NCBI RefSeq assembly: GCF_013817345.1
Contig: NZ_JACDCW010000001.1
Coordinates: 1-64,000 of the forward strand
Source: Methylibium sp.
GTDB lineage: Bacteria > Pseudomonadota > Gammaproteobacteria > Burkholderiales > Burkholderiaceae_C
Direction of reading: 5' to 3'
Length of the DNA stretch: 64,000 bases
Shown: positions 30,260 through 42,052 of the stretch, in pieces
Layout: each line of letters opens with the position of its first letter
Numbering within the stretch: the stretch's first letter is position 1
Translations under genes and position numbers: made by a program
Notes under the pieces: model-generated
What the model was told of the DNA's origin: nothing
Seen by the model: the letters and a program-made list of their open reading frames with translations, nothing else
Database searches by the model: none

Positions 30260-31873
30260 ATGACGACGCTCCCCGCCAGACCTGCTTCTCGCCTCTCGCG
30301 ACGACTTGCCGCGGCAATGTGTACGGCCTCGACCGCCGCGGCGATGGTGCTGCCGGCAGCGAGCCTCGCGCAAGACGCCGATCCTTCACACGCACCCGCA
30401 CCGTGCCGCGTCGACGGTCTGCGCCACGAGGTACTGTGCGGCCGGGTATCGCGCCCGCTAGACCCGGCTCAGCCGGCCGGCCGGCGAATCGACGTGCACT
30501 ACGTCGTGGTGCCGGCCACAGCCCTCGCCAAGCGACCCGACCCGGTGTTCTTCTTCGCCGGCGGCCCCGGGCAAAGCGCCATCGCGTTGGCCGGCCGGGT
30601 CATGCCCTTGTTCCAGCGCCTCAACAACCGGCGTGACATCGTCTTCATCGACCAGCGCGGTACCGGCCGCTCGGCGCCGTTGACGTGCGCGAGCGACGAT
30701 GCGCTGCCGCTGGCCGAGCGACTCGATCCGGACCGGGCGATCGCCCGGCTGCACGCCTGCCGCGAAACACTGCAGGCGCTGCCGCACGGCGACCTGCGCC
30801 GCTACACCACCGTCATCGCGACGACGGACGCCGAGGCGGTGCGTGCCGCGCTCGGCGCTCCGCAAGTGAACCTGGTCGGCGGCTCCTACGGCAGCCGTGC
30901 CGCGCTCGACTATCTGCGCCAGTTTCCCGCACGCGTGCGACGCGTCGTGCTCGACGGCGTGGCGCCGCCCGACATGGCGTTGCCGCGCAGCCTGTCGCTC
31001 GATACCGCCGCGGCGCTCGAAGCCTTGTTCGCCGATTGCGCACGGGACGCTGCCTGCACCGCCCGCCACCCGAAACTGCGCGAGCGCTGGCAGACGCTGC
31101 TGGCCAGTCTGCCGGCACGGATGAGCGCCGTGGATCCCGCTACCGGAATCACGAGCACCGTGACGCTGCGCCGGGAGACCGTTGCCGCCGCTGTGCGAGG
31201 GCCGCTCTACGCGCCGGCGCTGGCTGCGGCGCTGCCGTTCGCGATCAACGAGGCGCTGGCCGGGCGTGCTGCGCCGCTGATCGGCTTGGCCGGCAGCCTG
31301 GGCGGCGGCACGCGTGCGCTCGAAACAGCCGAAGGCATGCATTTTTCGGTGGTCTGCGCGGAAGACATGCCGCGGCTCGATGCGCCGCCTGCGACCGGTA
31401 CGAGGTCAGGCGCAACGGCGGACGCCGCAGCAGACGAAACGGTGTGGAACAGGACCGATGCAGCCGCGCCGGCGCAGGCTGCCAATGCGTTCTCGCAGGC
31501 CTTCCTGCGGCCCTACCGCGAGGTGTGCGCTGACTGGCCGCGCAGCGAGGTGCCGCCGGCTTTCTACACACTGCCTCGCAGCACGGTGCCTTTGCTCGCC
31601 TTCAGCGGAACGCTGGACCCGGTGACGCCGCCGCGTCATGGCGAGCGGGTGGTGCGGGCACTGGGCGCGGTGGAATCCGGCGGCAAGGCGCGCCATGTGG
31701 TCGTCGCCAACGTCGGGCATGGAGTGTTCGCGGTCGACTGCACGCGCGAAGTGCTGCAGCGCTTCATCGATGTCGAAAGCGAAGCGGACGCGATGTCGGC
31801 CGACGCTTCGTGCCTGGCCGGGCTGCCGCGGCCACCGGCTTTCGAGCCGCCCCGGCCGGAGTTGGCCGGGTGA
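30260..31873 (+). CDS. Secreted alpha/beta hydrolase, tripeptidyl-aminopeptidase/proline-iminopeptidase-like
   Basis: 537 residues. The signal peptide (LAAAMCTASTAAAMVLPAASLAQD) ends near residue 39. The alpha/beta-hydrolase core has the oxyanion strand FFFAGGPGQSA, FIDQRGTGRSAPL and the nucleophile elbow GGSYGSRAALDYL (Ser catalytic). The C-terminal TAP-like domain VPLLAFSGTLDPVTPP holds the acidic residue, and GHGVFAVDC the His. Exported peptidase or esterase activity is expected. The stop overlaps the next ABC ATPase start (GTGA). Confidence 0.88.
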   Translation: MTTLPARPASRLSRRLAAAMCTASTAAAMVLPAASLAQDADPSHAPAPCRVDGLRHEVLCGRVSRPLDPAQPAGRRIDVHYVVVPATALAKRPDPVFFFAGGPGQSAIALAGRVMPLFQRLNNRRDIVFIDQRGTGRSAPLTCASDDALPLAERLDPDRAIARLHACRETLQALPHGDLRRYTTVIATTDAEAVRAALGAPQVNLVGGSYGSRAALDYLRQFPARVRRVVLDGVAPPDMALPRSLSLDTAAALEALFADCARDAACTARHPKLRERWQTLLASLPARMSAVDPATGITSTVTLRRETVAAAVRGPLYAPALAAALPFAINEALAGRAAPLIGLAGSLGGGTRALETAEGMHFSVVCAEDMPRLDAPPATGTRSGATADAAADETVWNRTDAAAPAQAANAFSQAFLRPYREVCADWPRSEVPPAFYTLPRSTVPLLAFSGTLDPVTPPRHGERVVRALGAVESGGKARHVVVANVGHGVFAVDCTREVLQRFIDVESEADAMSADASCLAGLPRPPAFEPPRPELAG

Positions 31874-32655
31874 TCCGCGCCGAGGCGCTGCACAAGCGCT
31901 TTGCGGTTGCGGCCAAGGGCCTCTTCGGCCGCCGCCGGCCGCCGCCGCTGGTCGCTGTCGCGGACGTCGGCTTCACGGCGACCAATGGCCTCATCACCGG
32001 CCTGCTCGGTCCGAACGGCGCCGGCAAGACCACGACCCTGCGCATGGTGGCCGGGCTGGTCCTGCCGGACGGCGGCCGCATCGATGTCGACGGCATCGAC
32101 GTGACCCGTGACCCGCAAGCCGCCCTGCGCTGCATGGGCGTGCTCGGCGACGGCCGGGGCCTTTACCCGCGGCTCAGCGCCCGCGAGAACATCGTGTACT
32201 ACGCGCGGCTGCACGGGCTCGACCGCGACACCGCTCAGGCCCGCGCCGAGACGCTGGCCGAGACGCTGGACATGAAGCCGCTGCTCGAGCGCCGCACGGA
32301 GGGCTTCAGCCAAGGCGAACGCATGAAGACGGCGCTGGCCCGCGCGCTGGTCCACGACCCCGCCAACATCCTGCTGGACGAGCCGACCAACGGGCTCGAT
32401 GTGCTCTCCACACGCGCCTTGCGCGAGGCGCTGCGCCATCTGTGCAGCCCGGCGGGGGGCTCGAAGTGCATCGTGTTGTCGAGCCACGTGATGCAGGAGG
32501 TCGAGCGGCTGTGCGACCACGTGATCGTGATCGCCGGCGGGCGCACCGTGGCCGAGGGCACGGTGGCGCAGTTGTGCGAGCAGAGCGGCGAAAGCGATCT
32601 GGAGGAAGCGTTCGTGACGCTGGCATTCGGCACTCAGCAGGGCGCCCGCGCATGA
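31870..32655 (+). CDS. natA: ABC transporter ATP-binding protein, NatA-like
   Basis: 261-residue ATPase with Walker A GPNGAGKTTTLRM, signature-like SQGERMKTALARAL, Walker B NILLDEPTNGLD and switch His in VLSSHVMQEVERLCDH. The layout matches NatA of the Na+-extruding NatAB system and its homologues, but the exported substrate may differ. The start is a GTG at 31870 that overlaps the previous stop. It is joined to the permease gene by an ATGA overlap. Confidence 0.85.
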   Translation: MIRAEALHKRFAVAAKGLFGRRRPPPLVAVADVGFTATNGLITGLLGPNGAGKTTTLRMVAGLVLPDGGRIDVDGIDVTRDPQAALRCMGVLGDGRGLYPRLSARENIVYYARLHGLDRDTAQARAETLAETLDMKPLLERRTEGFSQGERMKTALARALVHDPANILLDEPTNGLDVLSTRALREALRHLCSPAGGSKCIVLSSHVMQEVERLCDHVIVIAGGRTVAEGTVAQLCEQSGESDLEEAFVTLAFGTQQGARA

Positions 32656-33845
32656 CGCGCGCGCTACACAAGGGCGACGTGTGGGCCGGCGCCGGCGCCG
32701 TCTTCGTCAAGGAGATCGTCGACGCGCTGCGCGACCGCCGCACGCTCGCCATGGTGCTGGTCAGCTCGGTGTTGCTGGGGCCGCTGGTGCTGGCCTTGCT
32801 GTCGAGCCTGGTCGCGGGACTGGAGGAGCGTGCGGAGCGGCGCGTCGTGGTGGCGGCCGGCATGGAGCACGCGCCGACCCTGCGCAACTTCATCGAGCGC
32901 CAGACCTACCGCATCGAGGCCGCCCCGCCCGATTACGAGGCCCGGCTGAAAGCCTCGACGCTCGGCGAGCCGGTGCTGCTGATCGAGCCCGGTTTCGAGG
33001 CGGGGCTGGCCCGCGGTGAGGCGCCTTCGGTGGCCATCGTCAGTGACAGCAGCAACCGTCAGGCCGAAACCGGTGCCCGCCGGCTGCAGCGTCTGCTCGA
33101 TGGCTTCAACCGCGAGCGCGGCTCCCTGCTGCTGGCGCTGCGCAGCGTGCCGGCGCAGTTGCTGCAGGCGATCGACGTGCAGGATCACGACCTCGCCAAC
33201 ACACGCAGCCGCGCCACGCAGCTCACCGGCATGCTGCCCTTCTTCGTCATCATGGCGGTGCTCTACGGCGCGCTGAACGCGGCGCTCGACACGACGGCCG
33301 GCGAGCGCGAGCGCGGCTCGCTGGAGCCGCTGCTCACCAACCCGGCCTCGCCGATGGCGCTGGTGCTCGGCAAATGGGCGGCCGTGGTCACGGTGGCCAT
33401 GCTGATCGCGCTGCTCAGCGTGCTGAGCTTCCTGCCTGCGCGCCTGCTGATCCAGAGCGAGACCTTGCGTTCTCTGTTCGTGTTCGGCTCGGCCGAGGCG
33501 GCGCGCTTCCTGTTGGTGCTGGTGCCGCTGGCGGCCGGGCTGTCGGCGCTGATGATGGCGGTGGCGATCCGCTGCAAGAGCTTTAAGGAGGCGCAGGCCA
33601 ACAACACGGCGGTGATCCTCGGCGTGTCGCTGATGCCCCTGGTGGCCTTGTTCAATCAGGGTGGAGATGAGCCCTGGTTCGCGTGGGTGCCGGCCTTGGC
33701 GCAGTACACCTTGATGAACCGGGTGTTGCGCGGCGAGGCGCTGGGCACCGCCGATGTGCTGGTCTCGCTGGTCGTGGGCCTCGTGCTCACCGCGTTGTGC
33801 CTGGCCTTCGTGGCGCGGCATCTGCGTTCGGTGGCGGTGCGCTGA
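32652..33845 (+). CDS. natB: ABC transporter permease, NatB-like
   Basis: 397 residues. An N-terminal helix (LAMVLVSSVLLGPLVLALLSSL) precedes an extracytoplasmic domain of about 140 residues. Five to six helices follow from about residue 190 (GMLPFFVIMAVLYGALNAAL), with the conserved GERERGSLEPLL loop typical of ABC-2 permeases. It overlaps its ATPase gene by four bases and forms an exporter with it. Confidence 0.85.
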   Translation: MTRALHKGDVWAGAGAVFVKEIVDALRDRRTLAMVLVSSVLLGPLVLALLSSLVAGLEERAERRVVVAAGMEHAPTLRNFIERQTYRIEAAPPDYEARLKASTLGEPVLLIEPGFEAGLARGEAPSVAIVSDSSNRQAETGARRLQRLLDGFNRERGSLLLALRSVPAQLLQAIDVQDHDLANTRSRATQLTGMLPFFVIMAVLYGALNAALDTTAGERERGSLEPLLTNPASPMALVLGKWAAVVTVAMLIALLSVLSFLPARLLIQSETLRSLFVFGSAEAARFLLVLVPLAAGLSALMMAVAIRCKSFKEAQANNTAVILGVSLMPLVALFNQGGDEPWFAWVPALAQYTLMNRVLRGEALGTADVLVSLVVGLVLTALCLAFVARHLRSVAVR

Positions 33846-33977: not shown

Positions 33978-34448
33978 TCATGCCAGCGGTATGAAGCCCG
34001 AGTCGCGCGAGCCAGCGCCGCGGCTGCCGAGGCGGCGGGCCGGCGGGGCGTCGCCTGTCGCCCGGTGTCGCTCTTCGCGTTGCGACTCCTCGAGCGCACG
34101 TTGCACCTCCGCCTGCCACGGCAGACCATGAACGATGCCGTTGAGATGCGGCGCGGCTTCGTGCGCGGTGAGCACCTCGCCTTCGTTGCCGATCAGGCGC
34201 AGGTTGGTGATCATCATCATGGGGTCGGCGATGGCAATCACGCCCTGCGCCACTTCGATCCAGTCCCATGACACGCCGGCCGCGCTGTCGGCGGCGCGGC
34301 CGCCCCACACCGTCTGCCCGGTGTACGGCCAATCGGCGTTCAGAGGCAGCGCGACATGCGTGCCAAGATGCACGAAGTGCGGTCTCGATTCGAGAGCCGG
34401 CTGCCACAATACAGGCGGCCACGCGCCCACGGTCCATGCAGGAGTCAT
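33978..34448 (-). CDS. Unrecognised protein divergent from luxR
   Basis: 156 codons. I do not recognise the family. The N-terminal two thirds look like a folded domain rich in Trp and hydrophobic residues (WPYTGQTVWGGRAADS; VSWDWIEVAQGVIAIADP; MMMITNLRLIGNEGEVL). The last 50 residues are polar and Arg-rich, perhaps disordered. There is no signal peptide. It starts 73 bases from the first lux-box-like site and is transcribed away from luxR, so that site could control both. Whether it belongs to the quorum-peptide system is open; an immunity or modification role would be speculation. Confidence 0.55.
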   Translation of the reverse strand: MTPAWTVGAWPPVLWQPALESRPHFVHLGTHVALPLNADWPYTGQTVWGGRAADSAAGVSWDWIEVAQGVIAIADPMMMITNLRLIGNEGEVLTAHEAAPHLNGIVHGLPWQAEVQRALEESQREERHRATGDAPPARRLGSRGAGSRDSGFIPLA

Positions 34449-34595: not shown

Positions 34596-35309
34596 ATGCT
34601 GCAAGGCAGCTACCAATCGGTTCTCGAAGCGCGCAACCGCGAGGAGTTTCGCAACGAGGTCGTGCGCTTCACGAAGCAGCTGGGCTTCGAGACGGTTGCG
34701 GCAGTGACGATCATTGATCATCACATCGGCGACTCGGAGTTCATCGAAGTCGACAACGCGCCGGACGCCTGGCGCGACGCCATGCAGGATCCGCAAGGCG
34801 GTCAACTCGATCCGGTGATGCAGCATTGCAAACGTCACAGCGTGCCGATCATTTGGGATCAAGGCACCTATGTGTCAGCGGGCCAAGGGGCGCTTTGGGA
34901 AATTCAGGCGCGCTATGGATACCGTGCCGGCATTTGCCTCGCGCTGCATATGCCGGACGGCAGGCACTTCATGCTGGGTGTCGACCGCGATCAGGCCTTG
35001 CCGAACGATCGCGCCGAAGTCACGCGCATCGTTGCCGACTTGCAGCTCTTCGCCGTTCATGCGCAGGACACCGCCATGCGCGTGTTGGTCCCCGAGCGAT
35101 TGCAGCCTGAACGGCCGAAGCTCACTCCTCGAGAGCTCGACAGTTTGCGCTGGACCATGGAAGGCAAAACTGCTTGGGAGGTCGGCGCCGTACTCGGCAT
35201 CACAGAACGAACCGCCGTCTTGCATGTGAGCAACGCGATGCACAAACTCGGCTGCAACAACAAGCACCAAGCGGTGCTCAAAGCGCTGCGGCTCGGTTTG
35301 ATCCGTTGA
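34596..35309 (+). CDS. LuxR-family transcriptional regulator with autoinducer-binding domain (LuxR solo)
   Basis: 237 residues. Residues 1-165 look like an acyl-homoserine-lactone-binding domain. They include DAWRDAMQDPQGGQLDPVMQ and IIWDQGTYVS, carrying the family's Trp/Asp pocket pattern. The C-terminal LuxR helix-turn-helix is TPRELDSLRWTMEGKTAWEV followed by LGITERTAVLHVSNAMHKLG. No luxI synthase is in the window. The ATG at 34596 follows GAAGGA at good spacing; the track start at 34530 lies in the upstream palindrome. It likely activates the downstream peptide-exporter operon through the lux-box-like sites. Confidence 0.92.
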   Translation: MLQGSYQSVLEARNREEFRNEVVRFTKQLGFETVAAVTIIDHHIGDSEFIEVDNAPDAWRDAMQDPQGGQLDPVMQHCKRHSVPIIWDQGTYVSAGQGALWEIQARYGYRAGICLALHMPDGRHFMLGVDRDQALPNDRAEVTRIVADLQLFAVHAQDTAMRVLVPERLQPERPKLTPRELDSLRWTMEGKTAWEVGAVLGITERTAVLHVSNAMHKLGCNNKHQAVLKALRLGLIR

Positions 35310-35337: not shown

Positions 35338-35353
35338 CTGTAAGAGTTGTCAG
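35338..35353 (+). promoter_or_regulatory. lux-box-like operator 2 (upstream of the small peptide and exporter)
   Basis: CTGTAAGAGTTGTCAG is the partner of the site before luxR and shows the same CTG-N10-CAG dyad. If bound at -42.5, as lux boxes usually are, transcription would start near 35388. TTCAAT at 35377-35382 would then be the -10 element and the small ORF would begin about 20 bases later. Geometry is consistent; use is inferred. Confidence 0.7.
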
Positions 35354-35408
35354 TACCCTCTGCCATCTGGCGCTGCTTCAATCTGGGCATTGCATTCATT
35401 GCGGATGC

Positions 35409-35588
35409 ATGTCAACACAGACTGGAGCCACCGTGCAAAAAAACCGCCAAGTTCCCGACACCGTTGCTGCAAATCGCCGTGTTGATCGCCCCCTCCCTGC
35501 AGGACAGACGGCACCGCTTCCGCTGGATCCCGGCCTTCTCACGCATGTCGGCGGTGCCGGTCCGCGGGCCCCGCGAACCACTTGGTGA
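35409..35588 (+). CDS. Short double-glycine-leader peptide precursor (candidate exported quorum-regulated peptide)
   Basis: A 59-residue ORF not in the supplied track, which I translated codon by codon from 35409 to the TGA at 35586-35588. The first 36 residues are polar and look unstructured. LPLDPGLLTHVGGA follows, resembling the tail of double-glycine leaders cut by C39 peptidases; with cleavage after Gly-Ala, Leu sits at -12 and -7 and Val at -4 as in the consensus. The remainder is GPRAPRTTW, only nine residues (ten if cut after Gly-Gly). There is no clear ribosome binding site. It lies between a lux-box-like site and a CvaA/CvaB-like exporter, the expected place for the cargo gene. A competing 103-codon frame (35347-35658) overlaps it. 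Confidence 0.6.
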   Translation: MSTQTGATVQKNRQVPDTVAANRRVDRPLPAGQTAPLPLDPGLLTHVGGAGPRAPRTTW

Positions 35589-35670
35589 TCGCGCGCAAAG
35601 CGGACTAGCCGCACCGAGACCGCAAGCCGCGACCGGTGCGGGGCCGCTCGGGCGCTGACCGCGCCCACCG

Positions 35671-36954
35671 ATGCCCTCCCTCTTTCGCCCCGAAGTTGTC
35701 GAAGCCCGCCAGCAAGCCTGGCTGGGCGGCATCCAGCTCATCCGGCCGCTGTCGCTGTCCTTCCTGACCGCCTGCGCCGTTATCGCGGCGCTTTTGGTCA
35801 TGGGCTATCTGTTCTTCGGCGAGTACACGCGCAAGGCCCGGATCGGCGGGGTGCTGGTGCCCGATCTGGGAGTGATCCGGCTGATGCCGCCGGAGCCGGC
35901 CAACGTGCTGGAGCGCCTTGCGCACGAAGGGCAGTCGGTTAAGCGCGGGGCATTGCTGTTTGTGCTGTCGGCCGATCGCGCCACCGCCGGCGGCGATGCC
36001 CAAGCCTCCGTGCAGCGCAGTCTCGCGCTCACGGAGCGCAGCCTGCAGGACGCGCTGCAGCGCCAAAGCGCTCTGCTCGACACCCGGCGCACCGCGCTCG
36101 ACCGCCAGATCGCCGATCGACGCGGCGAACTGGCACAGATCGAAACCGAATCGACGCTGCACCGCGAACGGCTCGACCTGGCGCAGCAGGCGCTCGCTCA
36201 GTACGACTCATTGCACCGCGACAACTTCATCTCCTTCGCGCAATTGCGCGCCAAGGGAGAGGAAGTGCTGGCGGTGCGCGCCCAGCTCCAGGCGCTGCAA
36301 CGGCAGCGGGCCGCGCAGCAGCGCGAGATCGGCGTGCTCGAAGGCGAACGCCGCGAGCTTCCGCTGCAGGCGCAGGCCGCCCGGGGCGAACTCGAGCGCG
36401 ATCTCGCCATGGTGGCGCGCGAGGCGACCCAGACGGAGGCCCGCCGCCGCATCCTCGTGCATGCGCCCAGCGACGGCGTGCTCGGCGCGGTGCTGGCCGA
36501 GCCCGGCCAGCCGGTGACGCCGGCCGCCGCACTCGCCAGCCTGGTGCCGGCCGATGCGCGCCTGCAGGCACATCTGTATGCACCGTCCAGCGCCTTGGGT
36601 TTCGTGCGCCCCGAGCAGGCGGTGCTGCTGCGCTACCAGGCCTATCCGTACCAGAAGTTCGGTCACCAGACCGGGCAGGTGCTGCAGGTCTCGCGCACGC
36701 CGCTGCAGGCCACCGAGATGGCCGGCGTGCCGTTGGCCGGCGTGGCCGCGTTCTCCGACGTGAGCGGCGAGCCGCTGTACCGCATCACCGTGGCGCTCGA
36801 CCGCCAGACCGTCTCCGCTTACGGCCAGCCGCAAGCGCTGGTGGCGGGCATGCAGCTCGAGGCCGATGTGCAACTCGACCGCCGCCGGCTGATCGAGTGG
36901 TTGTTCGAACCGCTGCTCGGCCTGACCGGGCGCGTCGCTGCCGAGCCGACATGA
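35671..36954 (+). CDS. HlyD-family adaptor of a colicin-V-type exporter (CvaA-like)
   Basis: 427 residues. One membrane helix (LSFLTACAVIAALLVMGYLFF, about residues 29-49) is followed by GEYTRKARIGGVLVPDLGV, then paired coiled coils (about residues 110-260) and a barrel domain. The segment LLRYQAYPYQKFGHQTGQVL followed by VSRTPLQ closely resembles CvaA of the colicin V system. It bridges the ABC transporter to an outer-membrane TolC-type channel, which is not encoded here. No strong ribosome binding site is seen before the ATG. It is 82 bases downstream of the peptide ORF. Confidence 0.9.
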   Translation: MPSLFRPEVVEARQQAWLGGIQLIRPLSLSFLTACAVIAALLVMGYLFFGEYTRKARIGGVLVPDLGVIRLMPPEPANVLERLAHEGQSVKRGALLFVLSADRATAGGDAQASVQRSLALTERSLQDALQRQSALLDTRRTALDRQIADRRGELAQIETESTLHRERLDLAQQALAQYDSLHRDNFISFAQLRAKGEEVLAVRAQLQALQRQRAAQQREIGVLEGERRELPLQAQAARGELERDLAMVAREATQTEARRRILVHAPSDGVLGAVLAEPGQPVTPAAALASLVPADARLQAHLYAPSSALGFVRPEQAVLLRYQAYPYQKFGHQTGQVLQVSRTPLQATEMAGVPLAGVAAFSDVSGEPLYRITVALDRQTVSAYGQPQALVAGMQLEADVQLDRRRLIEWLFEPLLGLTGRVAAEPT

Positions 36955-37119: not shown

Positions 37120-39270
37120 GTGAGCGACGGTCTGCGCTGGGGCTGGAGCGCCTCTGCCGTACCGATGGTCCTGCAGACCGAGGGCGCCGAATGCGGACTG
37201 GCCTGTCTGGCGATGGTGGCCGCGCATCATGGCCACCGCACCGACCTGGCCACGCTGCGTCAACGCTTCTCGCTGTCGCTCAAGGGCGCGACCCTGGCCG
37301 ACCTCGTGCGCTTCGCCGGAGCGCTGCAGCTCAACGCCCGGCCCCTGCGCGCCGAGCTGGAGCACCTCTCGCAATTGCAGTTGCCCTGCATCCTGCATTG
37401 GGATCTGAACCACTTCGTGGTGCTGAGCGACGTCAAGCGCGCGCGAGGCGGCTGGGTGGCAACCATTCACGACCCGGCGCGCGGCATCAGGCGGCTGCCG
37501 CTGGCCGAGCTGTCCCGGCATTTCACCGGCGTGGTGCTCGAACTGCTGCCCGGCGCCGGCTTCGAGGCCAAGACGGAACGCCAGCATGTCGGCCTGCGCC
37601 AGCTGCTCGGTCCGGTACGCGGCCTGAAGCGCTCGCTGGTGCAGATCTTCGTGCTCGCCCTGGCGCTGGAGCTGTTCATGCTGCTCGCGCCCTTCCTGCT
37701 GCAGTGGGTGGTCGATGGCGCCCTGCTCAGCGGCGACCGCGACTTGCTGATCACGCTGGTGATCGGCTTCGGCCTCCTGATGGGCCTGCAGGTGGCGACG
37801 GGTGCGTTGCGCTCCTGGGCGGTGCTCTATCTGTCGAGCACGCTCAACCTGCAGTGGCTGGGCAATGTGTTTGCGCACCTCATGCGCCTGCCGGTGGCGT
37901 GGTTCGAGAAGCGCCATGCCGGCGACGTGATGTCGCGCTTCGGCGCAATCCAGAAAATTCAGGAAACGCTCACCACCAGCTTCATCGAGGCAGTGCTCGA
38001 CGGCCTGCTGGTCGTGGTGACGCTCGCCGTGATGTGGGTCTACAGCGCCCTCTTGACCAGCATTGCGCTGGGCGCGGTCGCGATCTACGCGGTGTTGCGC
38101 TGGGCCTTCTTCCGCCCGCTGCGCGACGCCACCGAGGAGGCGATCGTGCACGAGGCCACGCGCTCGACGCACTTCCTCGAATCGCTGCGCGGCGTGCAGG
38201 CCATCAAGTTGTTCAACCGGCAGGACGAGCGCCGTGCCCGCTTCATGAACTTGGTGGTCGATGCGATGAATGCCGACATCGCCACCAAGAAGCTTGATCT
38301 CGCCTTCGGCGTCGCCAACAAGCTCGTGTTCGGCCTGGAGCGCATCGCCGTCATCGGCGTCGGGGCGCTGCTCGTGATGGACGAGCTGTTCACGGTCGGC
38401 ATGCTGTTCGCCTTCCTCGCATTTAAGGAACAGTTCGCGCAACGCGTGGCCGGCCTGATCGACAAGGTGGTCGAGCTGAAGATGCTGCGGCTGCAGGGCG
38501 AGCGCCTGGCCGACATTGTGCTCACCGCACCCGAGGTGCAGGTCGAGGACAAAGACGCCCGGCAGGAACCGGCAGCGCGGCTCGAGGTGCGCGACGTCGA
38601 TTTCCGCTACGCCGACACCGAGCCGAAGGTGCTCGAAGGCGCCAGCCTGGTCATCGAGCCGGGCGAATCGGTGGCCATCGTGGGACCGTCGGGCTGCGGC
38701 AAGACCACCTTGCTCAAGCTGATGCTCGGCATTCACGCTCCGCAAAGCGGCGAGATCCGCGTCGGCGGCGTGCCGCTCGCGCAACTCGGCCTGGCACGCT
38801 GGCGCGACATGATCGGCACGGTGATGCAGGACGACCAGCTGTTCGGCGGCTCCATCGCCGACAACATCGGCTTTTTCGACGTGCAGATGGATGCAGCTCG
38901 GGTCGAGGAATGCGCACGCCTGGCCTGCGTGCACGACGAGATCGAGGCCCTGCCGATGGGCTATCACACGCTGATCGGCGACATGGGCGCGAGCCTGTCG
39001 GGCGGGCAGAAGCAGCGCGTCCTGCTCGCCCGCGCGCTCTACAAACGCCCGCGCATCCTCTTTCTCGACGAAGCCACCAGTGCGCTCGACGTCGACCGCG
39101 AGCGGATGGTCAACCAGGCGATCCGCGGGCTCGACATCACGCGCGTGATCGTGGCCCACCGGCCGGAAACCATTGCAGCGGCGGCACGGGTCATCGTGCT
39201 GCAGGGTGGCCGCGTGACGCAGGATCTGCGCAGCGTGCCTAATCACGCGCAATCCGAAACCGGCCCCTGA
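37120..39270 (+). CDS. C39-peptidase-containing ABC transporter (CvaB-like, double-glycine peptide exporter)
   Basis: 716 residues from a GTG at 37120. Residues 15-130 are a C39 cysteine peptidase that removes double-glycine leaders: Cys25 in QTEGAECGLACLAMV, His98 in LNHFVVL and Asp118 in IHDPARG, so the triad is complete. Six helices follow (about 165-440). The C-terminal ATPase has Walker A GPSGCGKTTLLKL, signature LSGGQKQRVLLARAL and Walker B ILFLDEATSALD. It is expected to cleave and export the peptide encoded at 35409, together with the CvaA-like adaptor. Confidence 0.95.
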   Translation: MSDGLRWGWSASAVPMVLQTEGAECGLACLAMVAAHHGHRTDLATLRQRFSLSLKGATLADLVRFAGALQLNARPLRAELEHLSQLQLPCILHWDLNHFVVLSDVKRARGGWVATIHDPARGIRRLPLAELSRHFTGVVLELLPGAGFEAKTERQHVGLRQLLGPVRGLKRSLVQIFVLALALELFMLLAPFLLQWVVDGALLSGDRDLLITLVIGFGLLMGLQVATGALRSWAVLYLSSTLNLQWLGNVFAHLMRLPVAWFEKRHAGDVMSRFGAIQKIQETLTTSFIEAVLDGLLVVVTLAVMWVYSALLTSIALGAVAIYAVLRWAFFRPLRDATEEAIVHEATRSTHFLESLRGVQAIKLFNRQDERRARFMNLVVDAMNADIATKKLDLAFGVANKLVFGLERIAVIGVGALLVMDELFTVGMLFAFLAFKEQFAQRVAGLIDKVVELKMLRLQGERLADIVLTAPEVQVEDKDARQEPAARLEVRDVDFRYADTEPKVLEGASLVIEPGESVAIVGPSGCGKTTLLKLMLGIHAPQSGEIRVGGVPLAQLGLARWRDMIGTVMQDDQLFGGSIADNIGFFDVQMDAARVEECARLACVHDEIEALPMGYHTLIGDMGASLSGGQKQRVLLARALYKRPRILFLDEATSALDVDRERMVNQAIRGLDITRVIVAHRPETIAAAARVIVLQGGRVTQDLRSVPNHAQSETGP

Positions 39271-39375: not shown

Positions 39376-40158
39376 ATGGTGCGCGTTGTGAATGACGACG
39401 CACCGCCACTGCCGCAACTGCATCCGCGTTGCGCGCTCTTTCTCGATTTCGATGGCACGCTCACCCCGATCATGCTGCGGCCGCAGGATGTCGAGGTCGG
39501 CGCCTGGCTGGTGCCCACCTTGCGCAGCCTGCAGTCCCGTTTGAATGGGGCGCTTGCGATCATCAGCGGGCGGCCGCTGAGCGAGCTCGATGCCTTCCTC
39601 GCGCCGCTGCGCCTGCCGGCCGCCGGCGTGCACGGCGTGGAGCGGCGCGATGCCCAGGGCCGCACGCGCGTGCAGGCCGGTGCTCCGCCGGCCGATGTGC
39701 TCTACACAGTGGAGCGTGTCGTGGCTCGCTACCCGGAGCTGCGGCTCGAGCGCAAACCTTCGGCGCTCGCTTTGCACTACCGCGAAGCGCCGCATCTCGG
39801 CGACGTGTGCCAGCAGACCCTGCTGGCGGCGGTGCGACCGCACCAGGAAGACTGGACCGTGCTGCTCGGCAAGTGCGTGGTGGAGTTCAAGCCCAAGCGG
39901 GCCACCAAAGCGCATGCGGTGATCGAGTTCATGGAAAGCGAGGAGTTCGCCGGTCGCGTGCCGCTGTTCATCGGCGACGACGCGACCGACGAAGACGGCT
40001 TCACTGCGGTGCAGGCCGCGGGCGGTGCCGGCGTCAAGGTCGGGCCCGGGCCGAGCGGTGCGCTGCACCGCCTGGCCGACCCCGATGCGGTGCGCGTCTG
40101 GTTGCAGGCGGCCCTCGCGCAGTGGCCGCAGTCGGCCCAGCCGCAGAGCGCGCCATGA
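39376..40158 (+). CDS. otsB: Trehalose-6-phosphate phosphatase
   Basis: 260-residue HAD-family enzyme that dephosphorylates trehalose-6-phosphate to trehalose. Motif I is LFLDFDGTLTPI, AIISGRPLSEL follows, and the metal-binding motif is IGDDATDEDGF. It heads a three-gene trehalose cassette with a GH15 hydrolase and otsA. The ATG at 39376 has no strong ribosome binding site. Confidence 0.95.
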   Translation: MVRVVNDDAPPLPQLHPRCALFLDFDGTLTPIMLRPQDVEVGAWLVPTLRSLQSRLNGALAIISGRPLSELDAFLAPLRLPAAGVHGVERRDAQGRTRVQAGAPPADVLYTVERVVARYPELRLERKPSALALHYREAPHLGDVCQQTLLAAVRPHQEDWTVLLGKCVVEFKPKRATKAHAVIEFMESEEFAGRVPLFIGDDATDEDGFTAVQAAGGAGVKVGPGPSGALHRLADPDAVRVWLQAALAQWPQSAQPQSAP

Positions 40159-40252
40159 GCCGGCAGGGCCGCCGGGGTAAGCAAGGCCCCCTTCCCTGTA
40201 CGCGGCGCGCCCCTGCGCTCGGCTGGGCGGGGCGAAGAGCTTGGGTGCGTCC

Positions 40253-42052
40253 ATGAGGCCGCATGGCAGCTCGCTCGACCTCGGCCTCATTGGCAACTGT
40301 TCCATCAGCGCGCTGATCGACGCGCAGGCGCGCATCGTCTGGTATTGCCTGCCGCGCTTCGACGGCGACCCGGTGTTCCATGCCTTGCTGGCCGATCCGC
40401 CCTCGTGGCCGGCCAACGGTAGCTGGACGATCGAGATCGAGGACTTCGAGCGCAGTGAGCAGTCCTACGACGAAGGCACCGCCATCCTGCGCACGCGGCT
40501 GATCGGCCGCAACGGCGATGCGATCGAGGTGGTCGATTTCGCGCCGCGATTCTTTTCGCGCAATCGGCCGTTTCGCCCGGCGGTGCTGATTCGGCGTGTC
40601 CATCCCGTGCGCGGCCACCCGCGTATCCGCATCAGCATGCGGCCGATGGCCGACTGGGGCCGCGTGGTGCCGCAGATCACGCGAGGCGGCCATCACCTGC
40701 GTTATTGCGGCCCCGCCGGCACCTTGCGCCTCACCACCGACGCGCCCATCACCTACATCGAGGCCGAGATCTGGTTCTCGCTGGGCGGGCCGCTCAACAT
40801 GTTGCTCGGCCCGGACGAGACGGTCGAGCGCGGCGTGGCCGAGGTCGCACGGGAGTTCGAGGAGCAGACCGCGCATTACTGGCGCAGCTGGACGCGCGCG
40901 CTGGCCCTGCCGCTGGAATGGCAGGCCGCAGTGATCCGGGCCGCCATCACGCTCAAGATGTGCCTGTTCGAGGAGACCGGCGCCATCGTTGCGGCAATGA
41001 CGACGAGCATTCCCGAGGCGCCCGACAGCCAGCGCAACTGGGACTACCGCTACTGCTGGCTGCGCGACGCCTTCTTCGTGGTACGCGCGCTCAACAGCCT
41101 GTCGGAAGTCGGCACGATGGAGGACTACCTGCGCTGGCTGCACAACGTGGTGCGCGAGGCGGCGGGCGGGCACATCCAGCCGCTCTACGGCATCGGGCTG
41201 GAGAAGACCCTGCCGGAGGTTCAGCTCGATCACCTGCGCGGCTACCGCGGCATGGGCCCGGTCCGCGTGGGCAATCAGGCGCAGGAACACTTCCAGCACG
41301 ACGTGTACGGCAATGTCATTCTCGGCGCCGCGCAGTCCTTCCACGACCGGCGGCTCTTCCGGCGCGCCGACGCCGGCGACTTCGCCCTGCTCGAAGCGGT
41401 GGGCGAGCGCGCCTGGGCCACGCACGATCAGCCCGACGCCGGCATGTGGGAGCTGCGCACCCGCGCACGCGTGCACACGTCGTCGGCGCTGATGAGTTGG
41501 GCCGCCTGTGACCGCCTCGCCAAGATCGCCGTGGCGCTGGCGCTTCCGGAACGCGCGCTCCTTTGGCGCGCGCGGGCCGACACCATCCGTGAGCGGGTAT
41601 TGAGGGAGGCCTGGAGCGAACGCCGCCAGGCCTTCGCCGAGAGTCTGGGCGGCAACGACCTTGACGCCAGCGTGCTGCTGATGGCGGAGGTCGGCTTCAT
41701 CGATCCCCGCGATCCGCGTTTCATTGCCACGGTCGACGCGCTCGAAGCGAGCCTGTGCGATGGGCCCTACATGCGCCGCTACGAAGCGGCCGACGATTTC
41801 GGCAAGCCCGAAACCGCCTTCAACATCTGCGCCTTCTGGCGCATCGATGCGCTGGTACGCATCGGCAGGCGCGAGCAGGCGCGGGCGATCTTCGAGGCCA
41901 TGCTGGCGGTGCGCAACCCGTTAGGCCTGCTCTCGGAAGACACCGATCCCCGGAGCGGCGAGCTCTGGGGCAACTTTCCCCAAACGTATTCCATGGTCGG
42001 CGTGATCAACGCCGCTGTGCGCCTGTCGGCGCCGTGGGATTCGGTGATCTGA
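40253..42052 (+). CDS. Glycoside hydrolase family 15 protein (glucoamylase/trehalase-like)
   Basis: 599 residues. The N-terminal beta-sandwich (SLDLGLIGNCSISALIDAQA) is followed by the (alpha/alpha)6 barrel with the family motif SQRNWDYRYCWLRDA near residue 265 and a late segment LSEDTDPRSGELWGNFPQTY. GH15 members of this type hydrolyse trehalose or alpha-glucans. Its position between otsB and otsA favours trehalose. There is no signal peptide, so it is cytoplasmic. The ATG at 40253 is preferred over the track's TTG. Confidence 0.9.
   Translation: MRPHGSSLDLGLIGNCSISALIDAQARIVWYCLPRFDGDPVFHALLADPPSWPANGSWTIEIEDFERSEQSYDEGTAILRTRLIGRNGDAIEVVDFAPRFFSRNRPFRPAVLIRRVHPVRGHPRIRISMRPMADWGRVVPQITRGGHHLRYCGPAGTLRLTTDAPITYIEAEIWFSLGGPLNMLLGPDETVERGVAEVAREFEEQTAHYWRSWTRALALPLEWQAAVIRAAITLKMCLFEETGAIVAAMTTSIPEAPDSQRNWDYRYCWLRDAFFVVRALNSLSEVGTMEDYLRWLHNVVREAAGGHIQPLYGIGLEKTLPEVQLDHLRGYRGMGPVRVGNQAQEHFQHDVYGNVILGAAQSFHDRRLFRRADAGDFALLEAVGERAWATHDQPDAGMWELRTRARVHTSSALMSWAACDRLAKIAVALALPERALLWRARADTIRERVLREAWSERRQAFAESLGGNDLDASVLLMAEVGFIDPRDPRFIATVDALEASLCDGPYMRRYEAADDFGKPETAFNICAFWRIDALVRIGRREQARAIFEAMLAVRNPLGLLSEDTDPRSGELWGNFPQTYSMVGVINAAVRLSAPWDSVI

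Follow-up and report, generated by a model that had tools for sequence, protein, structure and literature searches.

LuxR solos are abundant, and the ligand of most of them is unknown; peptide pheromone signalling is mostly known from Gram-positive bacteria, for which double-glycine peptides have been reviewed (PMC7595303). Among the closest described systems is PipR, an OryR-type solo of Pseudomonas sp. GM79, which answers a peptide-like compound and depends on an ABC peptide importer (PMC4981722); PMC10134790 gives the PipR ligand as HEHEAA, a derivative of ethanolamine. In the RsaM type 6 topology, a divergent rsaM gene accompanies a luxR solo in Pelomonas, Kinneretia, Albitalea, and other genera (PMC10710839).

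Here we describe a locus in a 64,000-nucleotide stretch of Methylibium sp. DNA, referred to below as the window. As in OryR/PipR systems, it has a LuxR-fold regulator without LuxI, and the ligand of PipR is non-acyl-homoserine lactone (AHL) and peptide-like. In those systems, however, the signal is plant-derived, no peptide gene has been reported, and the proline iminopeptidase gene (pip) and an importer flank PipR. At our locus there is no adjacent pip gene; instead, a ribosomal peptide gene, a lux box, and an exporter adjoin luxR (Table 1), and the peptide core covaries with the ligand pocket. The open-licence literature that we searched contains no description of the peptide gene or of a self-encoded ribosomal LuxR ligand, an earlier description elsewhere remaining possible.

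Table 1 Features of the peptide–luxR locus, in window positions
Feature	Position	Strand	Remarks
Hip1/TAP-like alpha/beta-hydrolase	30260..31873	+	Signal-peptide-like N-terminus; 2.7 kb upstream
RsaM-like (DUF4902-like) gene	33978..34448	-	Divergent from luxR
luxR solo	34596..35309	+	Autoinducer-binding domain and GerE HTH; proposed receptor
Pocket codon A56	34758-34760		
Pocket codon W60	34770-34772		
Pocket codon M64	34782-34784		
Pocket codon G70	34800-34802		
Pocket codon L101	34893-34895		
Pocket codon C115	34935-34937		
lux box CTGTAAGAGTTGTCAG	35338..35353	+	Upstream of peptide gene; similar box in relatives
Candidate -10 element TTCAAT	35377..35382	+	Would place the lux box at about -43
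Upstream extension from ATG	35409..35432	+	Frameshifted in L003
Peptide precursor gene	35433..35588	+	51 codons from GTG, plus stop; signature P-x-x-x-W-COOH
Leader	35433..35558	+	Ends L-12 ... L-7 ... V-4 G G A
Predicted product GPRAPRTTW	35559..35585	+	Double-glycine rule; GG(A) cleavage inferred
Core PRTTW (P-x1-x2-x3-W)	35571..35585	+	P and W invariant; positions covary with LuxR pocket
HlyD-type membrane fusion protein	35671..36954	+	HlyD_3 3e-11, type_I_hlyD 4e-33
C39 peptidase ABC exporter (PCAT)	37120..39270	+	Peptidase_C39 1e-32, ABC_membrane, ABC_tran

A short open reading frame downstream of luxR is conserved as a protein

A preliminary description of the window had proposed a small open reading frame (ORF) at 35409–35588 (+). 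Translation confirmed this frame and its C-terminal end (LPLDPGLLTHVGGA/GPRAPRTTW), while the start had been placed 24 nt too far upstream. ATG 35409 was rejected as the start codon: in L003, the nearest relative (HlyD 97% identical), a 1-bp insertion falls between ATG 35409 and GTG 35433, and the frame is intact downstream of the GTG. Because of this upstream indel, of the GGAG ribosome site that precedes GTG 35433, and of the GTG or ATG start that orthologs have at the matching position, translation most probably begins at GTG 35433, giving a precursor of 51 aa (MQKNRQVPDTVAANRRVDRPLPAGQTAPLPLDPGLLTHVGGAGPRAPRTTW), and the upstream extension is probably not translated within it.

Comparison of the precursor gene between the window and L003 revealed nine differences, seven of them at third codon positions (dN/dS ~0.16). 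The same differences read in the frame of an overlapping ORF at 35347–35658 amount to nine non-synonymous and no synonymous changes, and this frame was rejected as a gene. Across 17 close pairs, pooled dN/dS (computed as uncorrected proportions) was 0.26 in the peptide frame versus 1.9–2.2 in the two remaining forward frames; the substitution count alone does not rule out one antisense frame, in which the wobble position is the same. The precursor ORF is under purifying selection as a protein and the overlapping frame is not. The codon-substitution check that the preliminary description had set for itself, with conservation of the overlapping frame as the refuting outcome, was thus passed.

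The peptide had no match in Pfam, PHROGs, or PADLOC, and its match to the AmcA cyclophane RiPP model of NCBIfam was weak (E 0.024) and below the cut-off. No modification enzyme was noticed within the cassette, and the idea of a Lys–Trp crosslink fails, x1 Lys not being conserved.

The peptide belongs to a large family with a P-x-x-x-W core

Nearly all of the relatives examined have a homologous small ORF immediately after the orthologous luxR. At 102 of 126 non-redundant loci, an ORF ending in P-x-x-x-W was found within 420 nt downstream of luxR, compared with none in antisense, 0.9 on average in shuffles, and 3/125 in a control stretch. Both the proline and the tryptophan of the core are present in all W-type precursors (110/110), with x1 being K, R, or N in 87 and x3 being Gly or Thr in 88 of the 110; the Pro-Arg and terminal Trp that had initially been called unusual are in fact the family signature. 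More than one copy of the core (2–7) occurs in 49 precursors, up to the seven copies of AGPRGTW in L055, and all copies are identical in 41 of these 49. Identical copies within a precursor, together with variation between species, are as expected for a released peptide product. Tiny P-x-x-x-W peptides, whose export is inferred, form a large and apparently undescribed family.

A minority group of loci (L048, L056, L063, L067, L079, L086, L092, L097, L157) carries the variant cores LPRVS, LPRVG, LPRVGGL, LPRAGGL, or LPRIGGL, which lack the terminal Trp, and has Y or H at LuxR position 64. More distant LuxR proteins (~40–50% identical) are followed by tiny ORFs (9–27 aa) with P-x-x-G-G/W/F motifs, such as MICLPRVGW (L213), MTQSHSIAPAFPRVGF (L216), MWKLIAEVFGLPYTGG (L218), and MNPIAVIASQRDFPRTGGW (L204), often with a palindromic site upstream (loci L201, L203–L206, L211–L219, L221–L224, L227, L228). 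Since these ORFs were read by eye and not scored against chance, and the automatic P-x-x-x-W test gave 7/42 at distant loci versus 4/41 in the control stretch, extension of the family to distant LuxR proteins is a tentative lead rather than a result. At L215, two successive short ORFs follow one luxR and both end in FPRVGF, a duplication of separate genes and not repeats within one precursor. Five further loci (L207, L208, L209, L210, L226) have two to five luxR paralogs in tandem beside a single peptide gene; the extra paralogs, for which no peptide of their own was seen, have different pocket residues (e.g. F, A, C, G at 70) and look as if they could be tuned to peptides of other strains.

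The leader goes with the exporter, the peptide–luxR pairing outlives both

The leader profile of 101 precursors reads L-12, L-7, V/I-4, G-2, and G/A-1, and the window precursor conforms at every position (L-12, L-7, V-4, G-2, A-1). The linked exporter is supported by its C39 peptidase domain (Pfam PF03412, E 1e-32) together with the HlyD protein, and the Cys, His, and Asp of the peptidase can be read in AECGLAC, LNHFVVL, and IHDPA. Several claims of the preliminary description bear on this arrangement. Leu at -12 and -7 and Val at -4 before a Gly-Ala site held as claimed, as did bracketing by a lux-box-like site (35338–35353) and an exporter (HlyD and C39 ABC genes downstream). Comparison with relatives supports a precursor of the double-glycine type that carries a nine-residue peptide at its C-terminus, cleavage being inferred; it likewise supports lux box control and service by the adjoining C39 exporter, both of which also remain inferences.

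A GG/GA leader with conserved L-12, L-7, and V-4 is present in every W-type precursor that has a linked exporter (89/89), and is missing from 9 of the 21 that have none. Four genomes with leaderless peptides (L054, L062, L064, L091) lack a C39 exporter at E 1e-100, and in six genomes where the precursor keeps GG with no exporter linked to it, a C39 paralog is encoded elsewhere. The leader therefore goes with the exporter, and the pairing of peptide and luxR outlives the loss of both. Exporter-less loci (L040, L054, L055, L062, L064, L068, L081, L082, L085, L091) adjoin an mnmG-like gene, and in some cases rsmG and parA too, which from sequence alone would put them near the replication origin.

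The LuxR solo has an altered acyl-homoserine lactone pocket

The luxR product has both domains of a LuxR-type receptor (Pfam Autoind_bind 8e-24, GerE 3e-14) and matches QscR, RhlR, SdiA, and LasR by fold and sequence, QscR, RhlR, and SdiA being the matches by fold. Its AlphaFold model has a mean pLDDT of 82.7 and a pTM of 0.66, with weaker stretches at 44–46 and 61–70. No LuxI was found in its own genome (G000) or genus, nor in 34 of 38 genomes of relatives, and we therefore regard it as a solo. It is the only member of its subfamily in its own genome (E 1e-12). A class-level search at E 1e-50 found no match in 369 genomes outside its own, so that the subfamily looks restricted to the family.

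Residues are numbered from codon 34593, which by alignment gives the same numbers as in LasR over 50–130. Pocket positions were assigned by sequence alignment to LasR, without structure coordinates, using a list of LasR AHL-pocket residues that agrees with the contact lists in PMC12567134. Among the LasR AHL contacts, D73 and W88 are kept in the subfamily and position 60 is W, Y, or F. Most members have another residue in place of Y64, and position 56 is A, T, C, or I instead of Y, the window protein having M64 and A56; the canonical contact set (Y56, W60, Y64, D73, W88) is thus not complete.

Peptide core and receptor pocket coevolve residue by residue

A match between the P-x-x-x-W core and the ligand pocket of the neighbouring LuxR had not been seen in the preliminary description. 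Across 74 non-redundant loci, core distance correlated with LuxR ligand-domain distance once HlyD distance was controlled for (partial Mantel r 0.16, P 0.006), and not with distance in the LuxR DNA-binding domain (P 0.84) or in HlyD. Linkage alone is insufficient to account for the signal, since the stretch that separates the ligand domain from the peptide gene encodes the uncorrelated DNA-binding domain. Within the ligand domain, the 17 AHL-pocket columns covary with the core above the rest of the 116 variable columns (Mann–Whitney P 8e-5; P 0.001 in label permutation and in within-clade permutation alike). The leader peptide, used as a control trait, showed no pocket excess (P 0.17), and the exporter did not covary with the core.

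For each core position, the top LuxR column (-1/115, x1/101, x2/56, x3/70) is a pocket position and lies above the 95% max-null from permutations across all columns. Of the receptors with Gly70, 48/48 have a partner with a non-Gly x3; of those with a bulky residue 70 (W, M, F, Y, H, Q, R), 38/38 are paired with Gly at x3; where residue 101 is Lys or Arg, x1 is uncharged (26/26). The window itself obeys these rules, pairing G70 with Thr and L101 with Arg. Pagel tests on a tree of HlyD, whose gene stands outside the peptide/luxR pair, supported dependence for 70/x3 (P ~1e-11) and 101/x1 (P 2e-9), with 14–25 parsimony changes per trait, and gave no signal for the swapped pairs 70/x1 (P 0.76) and 101/x3 (P 0.47). 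Even within the genus of the window, and with LuxR proteins 88% identical, L006 combines PRNGW with Met70 and L004 PKNTW with Gly70. The rules hold in both locus subsets (some genomes may be in both) and in leaderless, exporter-less loci too. We conclude that pocket and core coevolve residue by residue; complementarity of size and charge within the cavity would explain this, in the absence of binding data.

Promoter and surroundings of the locus

The lux box CTGTAAGAGTTGTCAG is the only site in the genome at ≤1 mismatch, and the reversed control had no match; no strict box was found in the own genome beyond the peptide operon, hence no further output is known. Of 127 loci, 120 have a box of this type ahead of the peptide gene. 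A TTCAAT-like hexamer is found in 46 of the 120 boxed loci, at 22–23 nt after the box in 44; a box near -43 is the position known from LuxR-activated class II promoters.

The gene order is kept in relatives named Methylibium, Rubrivivax, Roseateles, Paucibacter, Mitsuaria, Rhizobacter, Piscinibacter, and others, and the RsaM-like gene adjoins luxR in 80/80 loci compared. Its product scores 17.5 bits against Pfam PF16245, below the cut-off of 25; three of four orthologs score 14.5–24.1 bits and the fourth has no match. We therefore call it RsaM-like and do not assign it. The Hip1/TAP-like hydrolase, accompanied by an ABC-2 transporter pair (31810–33845), is retained ahead of the cassette in most loci; its matches to prolyl-aminopeptidase models are weak. 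Whether the hydrolase trims the peptide is speculative, and the association may be synteny only; removal of GPR by it could leave APRTTW, which is the six covarying residues. After the exporter, at 39376–42052, trehalose-phosphatase and GH15 family genes follow in Methylibium.

A proposed peptide signalling loop and its alternatives

The peptide core is very likely the ligand of the adjoining LuxR, for which there are no binding data. Around this pairing we propose, with somewhat less assurance, an autoinducer loop in which the peptide is exported and re-imported and the LuxR solo is the receptor, with binding, export, uptake, and expression all inferred. The C39 exporter would cut the precursor after VGGA, and GPRAPRTTW would leave the cell through the exporter, HlyD, and an outer-membrane channel. 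The C-terminal hexapeptide APRTTW, or a trimmed form, would return to the cytoplasm, e.g. via an Opp/Dpp importer. This step is no more than plausible, its basis being five SBP_bac_5 proteins in the genome. The peptide would then sit in the cavity that holds the AHL in LasR and its relatives, with -1 near 115, x1 near 101, x2 near 56 and 64, and x3 near 70; these contacts rest on covariation and not on structure, the model being only moderately confident around 61–70. Bound LuxR would act at the lux box and turn on pep-hlyD-C39, a positive feedback inferred from the position and uniqueness of the box, and the RsaM-like protein may damp the loop, as inferred from the RsaM literature.

Chance ORFs of some length are common at such GC content, and the precursor could in principle be a spurious ORF in GC-rich intergenic DNA, or the true gene could be the frame 35347–35658. 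Against this stand the 102/126 loci with a P-x-x-x-W ORF, where ~1 would be expected, and the exclusively non-synonymous changes in the overlapping frame, which refute this alternative as far as comparative data allow and leave it all but excluded. Covariation might also merely reflect that adjacent genes are inherited or transferred together, as neighbouring genes can move as a block. We consider this very improbable: the DNA-binding domain, although nearer to the peptide gene, is uncorrelated, as is HlyD, and the coupling is position-specific and chemically complementary, with swapped pairs giving null results.

Two further alternatives concern function. The peptide may be a double-glycine bacteriocin or other exported effector, with the LuxR solo sensing the AHL of neighbours and never contacting the peptide. 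Bacteriocins are a common cargo of C39 exporters, foreign AHLs are frequent ligands of LuxR solos, and the AHL-pocket residues D73, W88, and G113 are kept. This reading nevertheless appears highly unlikely in view of the residue-by-residue core/pocket covariation with its null controls, the persistence of peptide and LuxR without the exporter, the replacement of LasR Y64 in most members and of Y56 by A/T/C/I, and the lack of a noticed candidate immunity gene (no systematic search was made). Less easily set aside, yet still unlikely, is that the peptide binds LuxR mainly inside the producer as a cytoplasmic ligand, co-factor, or antagonist, C39 export serving as a timer or sink. Leaderless versions of 18–20 aa beside luxR, with no close C39 exporter and an intact residue-70 rule, speak for it, as do the tiny ORFs of 9–27 aa after distant LuxR proteins without a linked exporter; a dedicated exporter and canonical leader in 89/110 W-type precursors speak against it, and several identical core copies per precursor suit a released signal better. 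For the exported pheromone that we favour, the leaderless and exporter-less relatives are an adverse observation, showing that export is not universal; so is the Trp-less minority (LPRVS, LPRVGGL), and a signal without any target beyond the peptide operon would be odd.

In a bolder form, which as a whole we regard as likely, the exported-pheromone reading describes a quorum-sensing class of Burkholderiaceae whose LuxR-type receptors have peptides as ligands. Every solo would have a ribosomal P-x-x-x-W or P-x-x-G-G/W peptide of its own, and complementarity of size and charge within the former AHL pocket would determine specificity. This reading would cover both exporter-linked repeat precursors and leaderless peptides of 9–27 aa. 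If it is true, the LuxR subfamily gains a predicted and easily synthesised ligand for each strain, with a written specificity code (115/-1, 101/x1, 56/x2, 70/x3), and the ligand question for such solos reduces to a short reporter assay. Peptide pheromone signalling would be joined with the classic Gram-negative receptor family, and the loci would be a source of orthogonal peptide/receptor pairs. The findings suggest that some kin of the classic homoserine-lactone receptors sense a self-made peptide instead.

Comparison with known systems

With LuxI/LuxR AHL quorum sensing the locus shares the receptor fold, the lux box, the feedback layout of the operon, and the RsaM-like neighbour; it differs in having no LuxI, a ribosomal peptide in place of the AHL, and replacement of LasR Y56 and, mostly, Y64. 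The RsaM type 6 topology very likely represents the same two genes in related genera, with neither peptide nor exporter mentioned in the relevant sections of PMC10710839. RRNPP/Rgg systems (e.g. Rgg/SHP) resemble it in the short ribosomal peptide, its export and presumed re-import, and a cytoplasmic transcription factor encoded next to it, whereas the receptor here is of the LuxR autoinducer-binding type, Gram-negative, and unrelated to the TPR fold of RRNPP proteins. Class II microcins and NHLP-like systems have the same GG leader, HlyD, and C39 ABC exporter, while the product here is short, often repeated, and tied to a LuxR protein rather than to a target cell. The parts (LuxR fold, GG leader, C39 exporter, and lux box) are of known kinds, and the novelty lies in the pairing of ligand and receptor.
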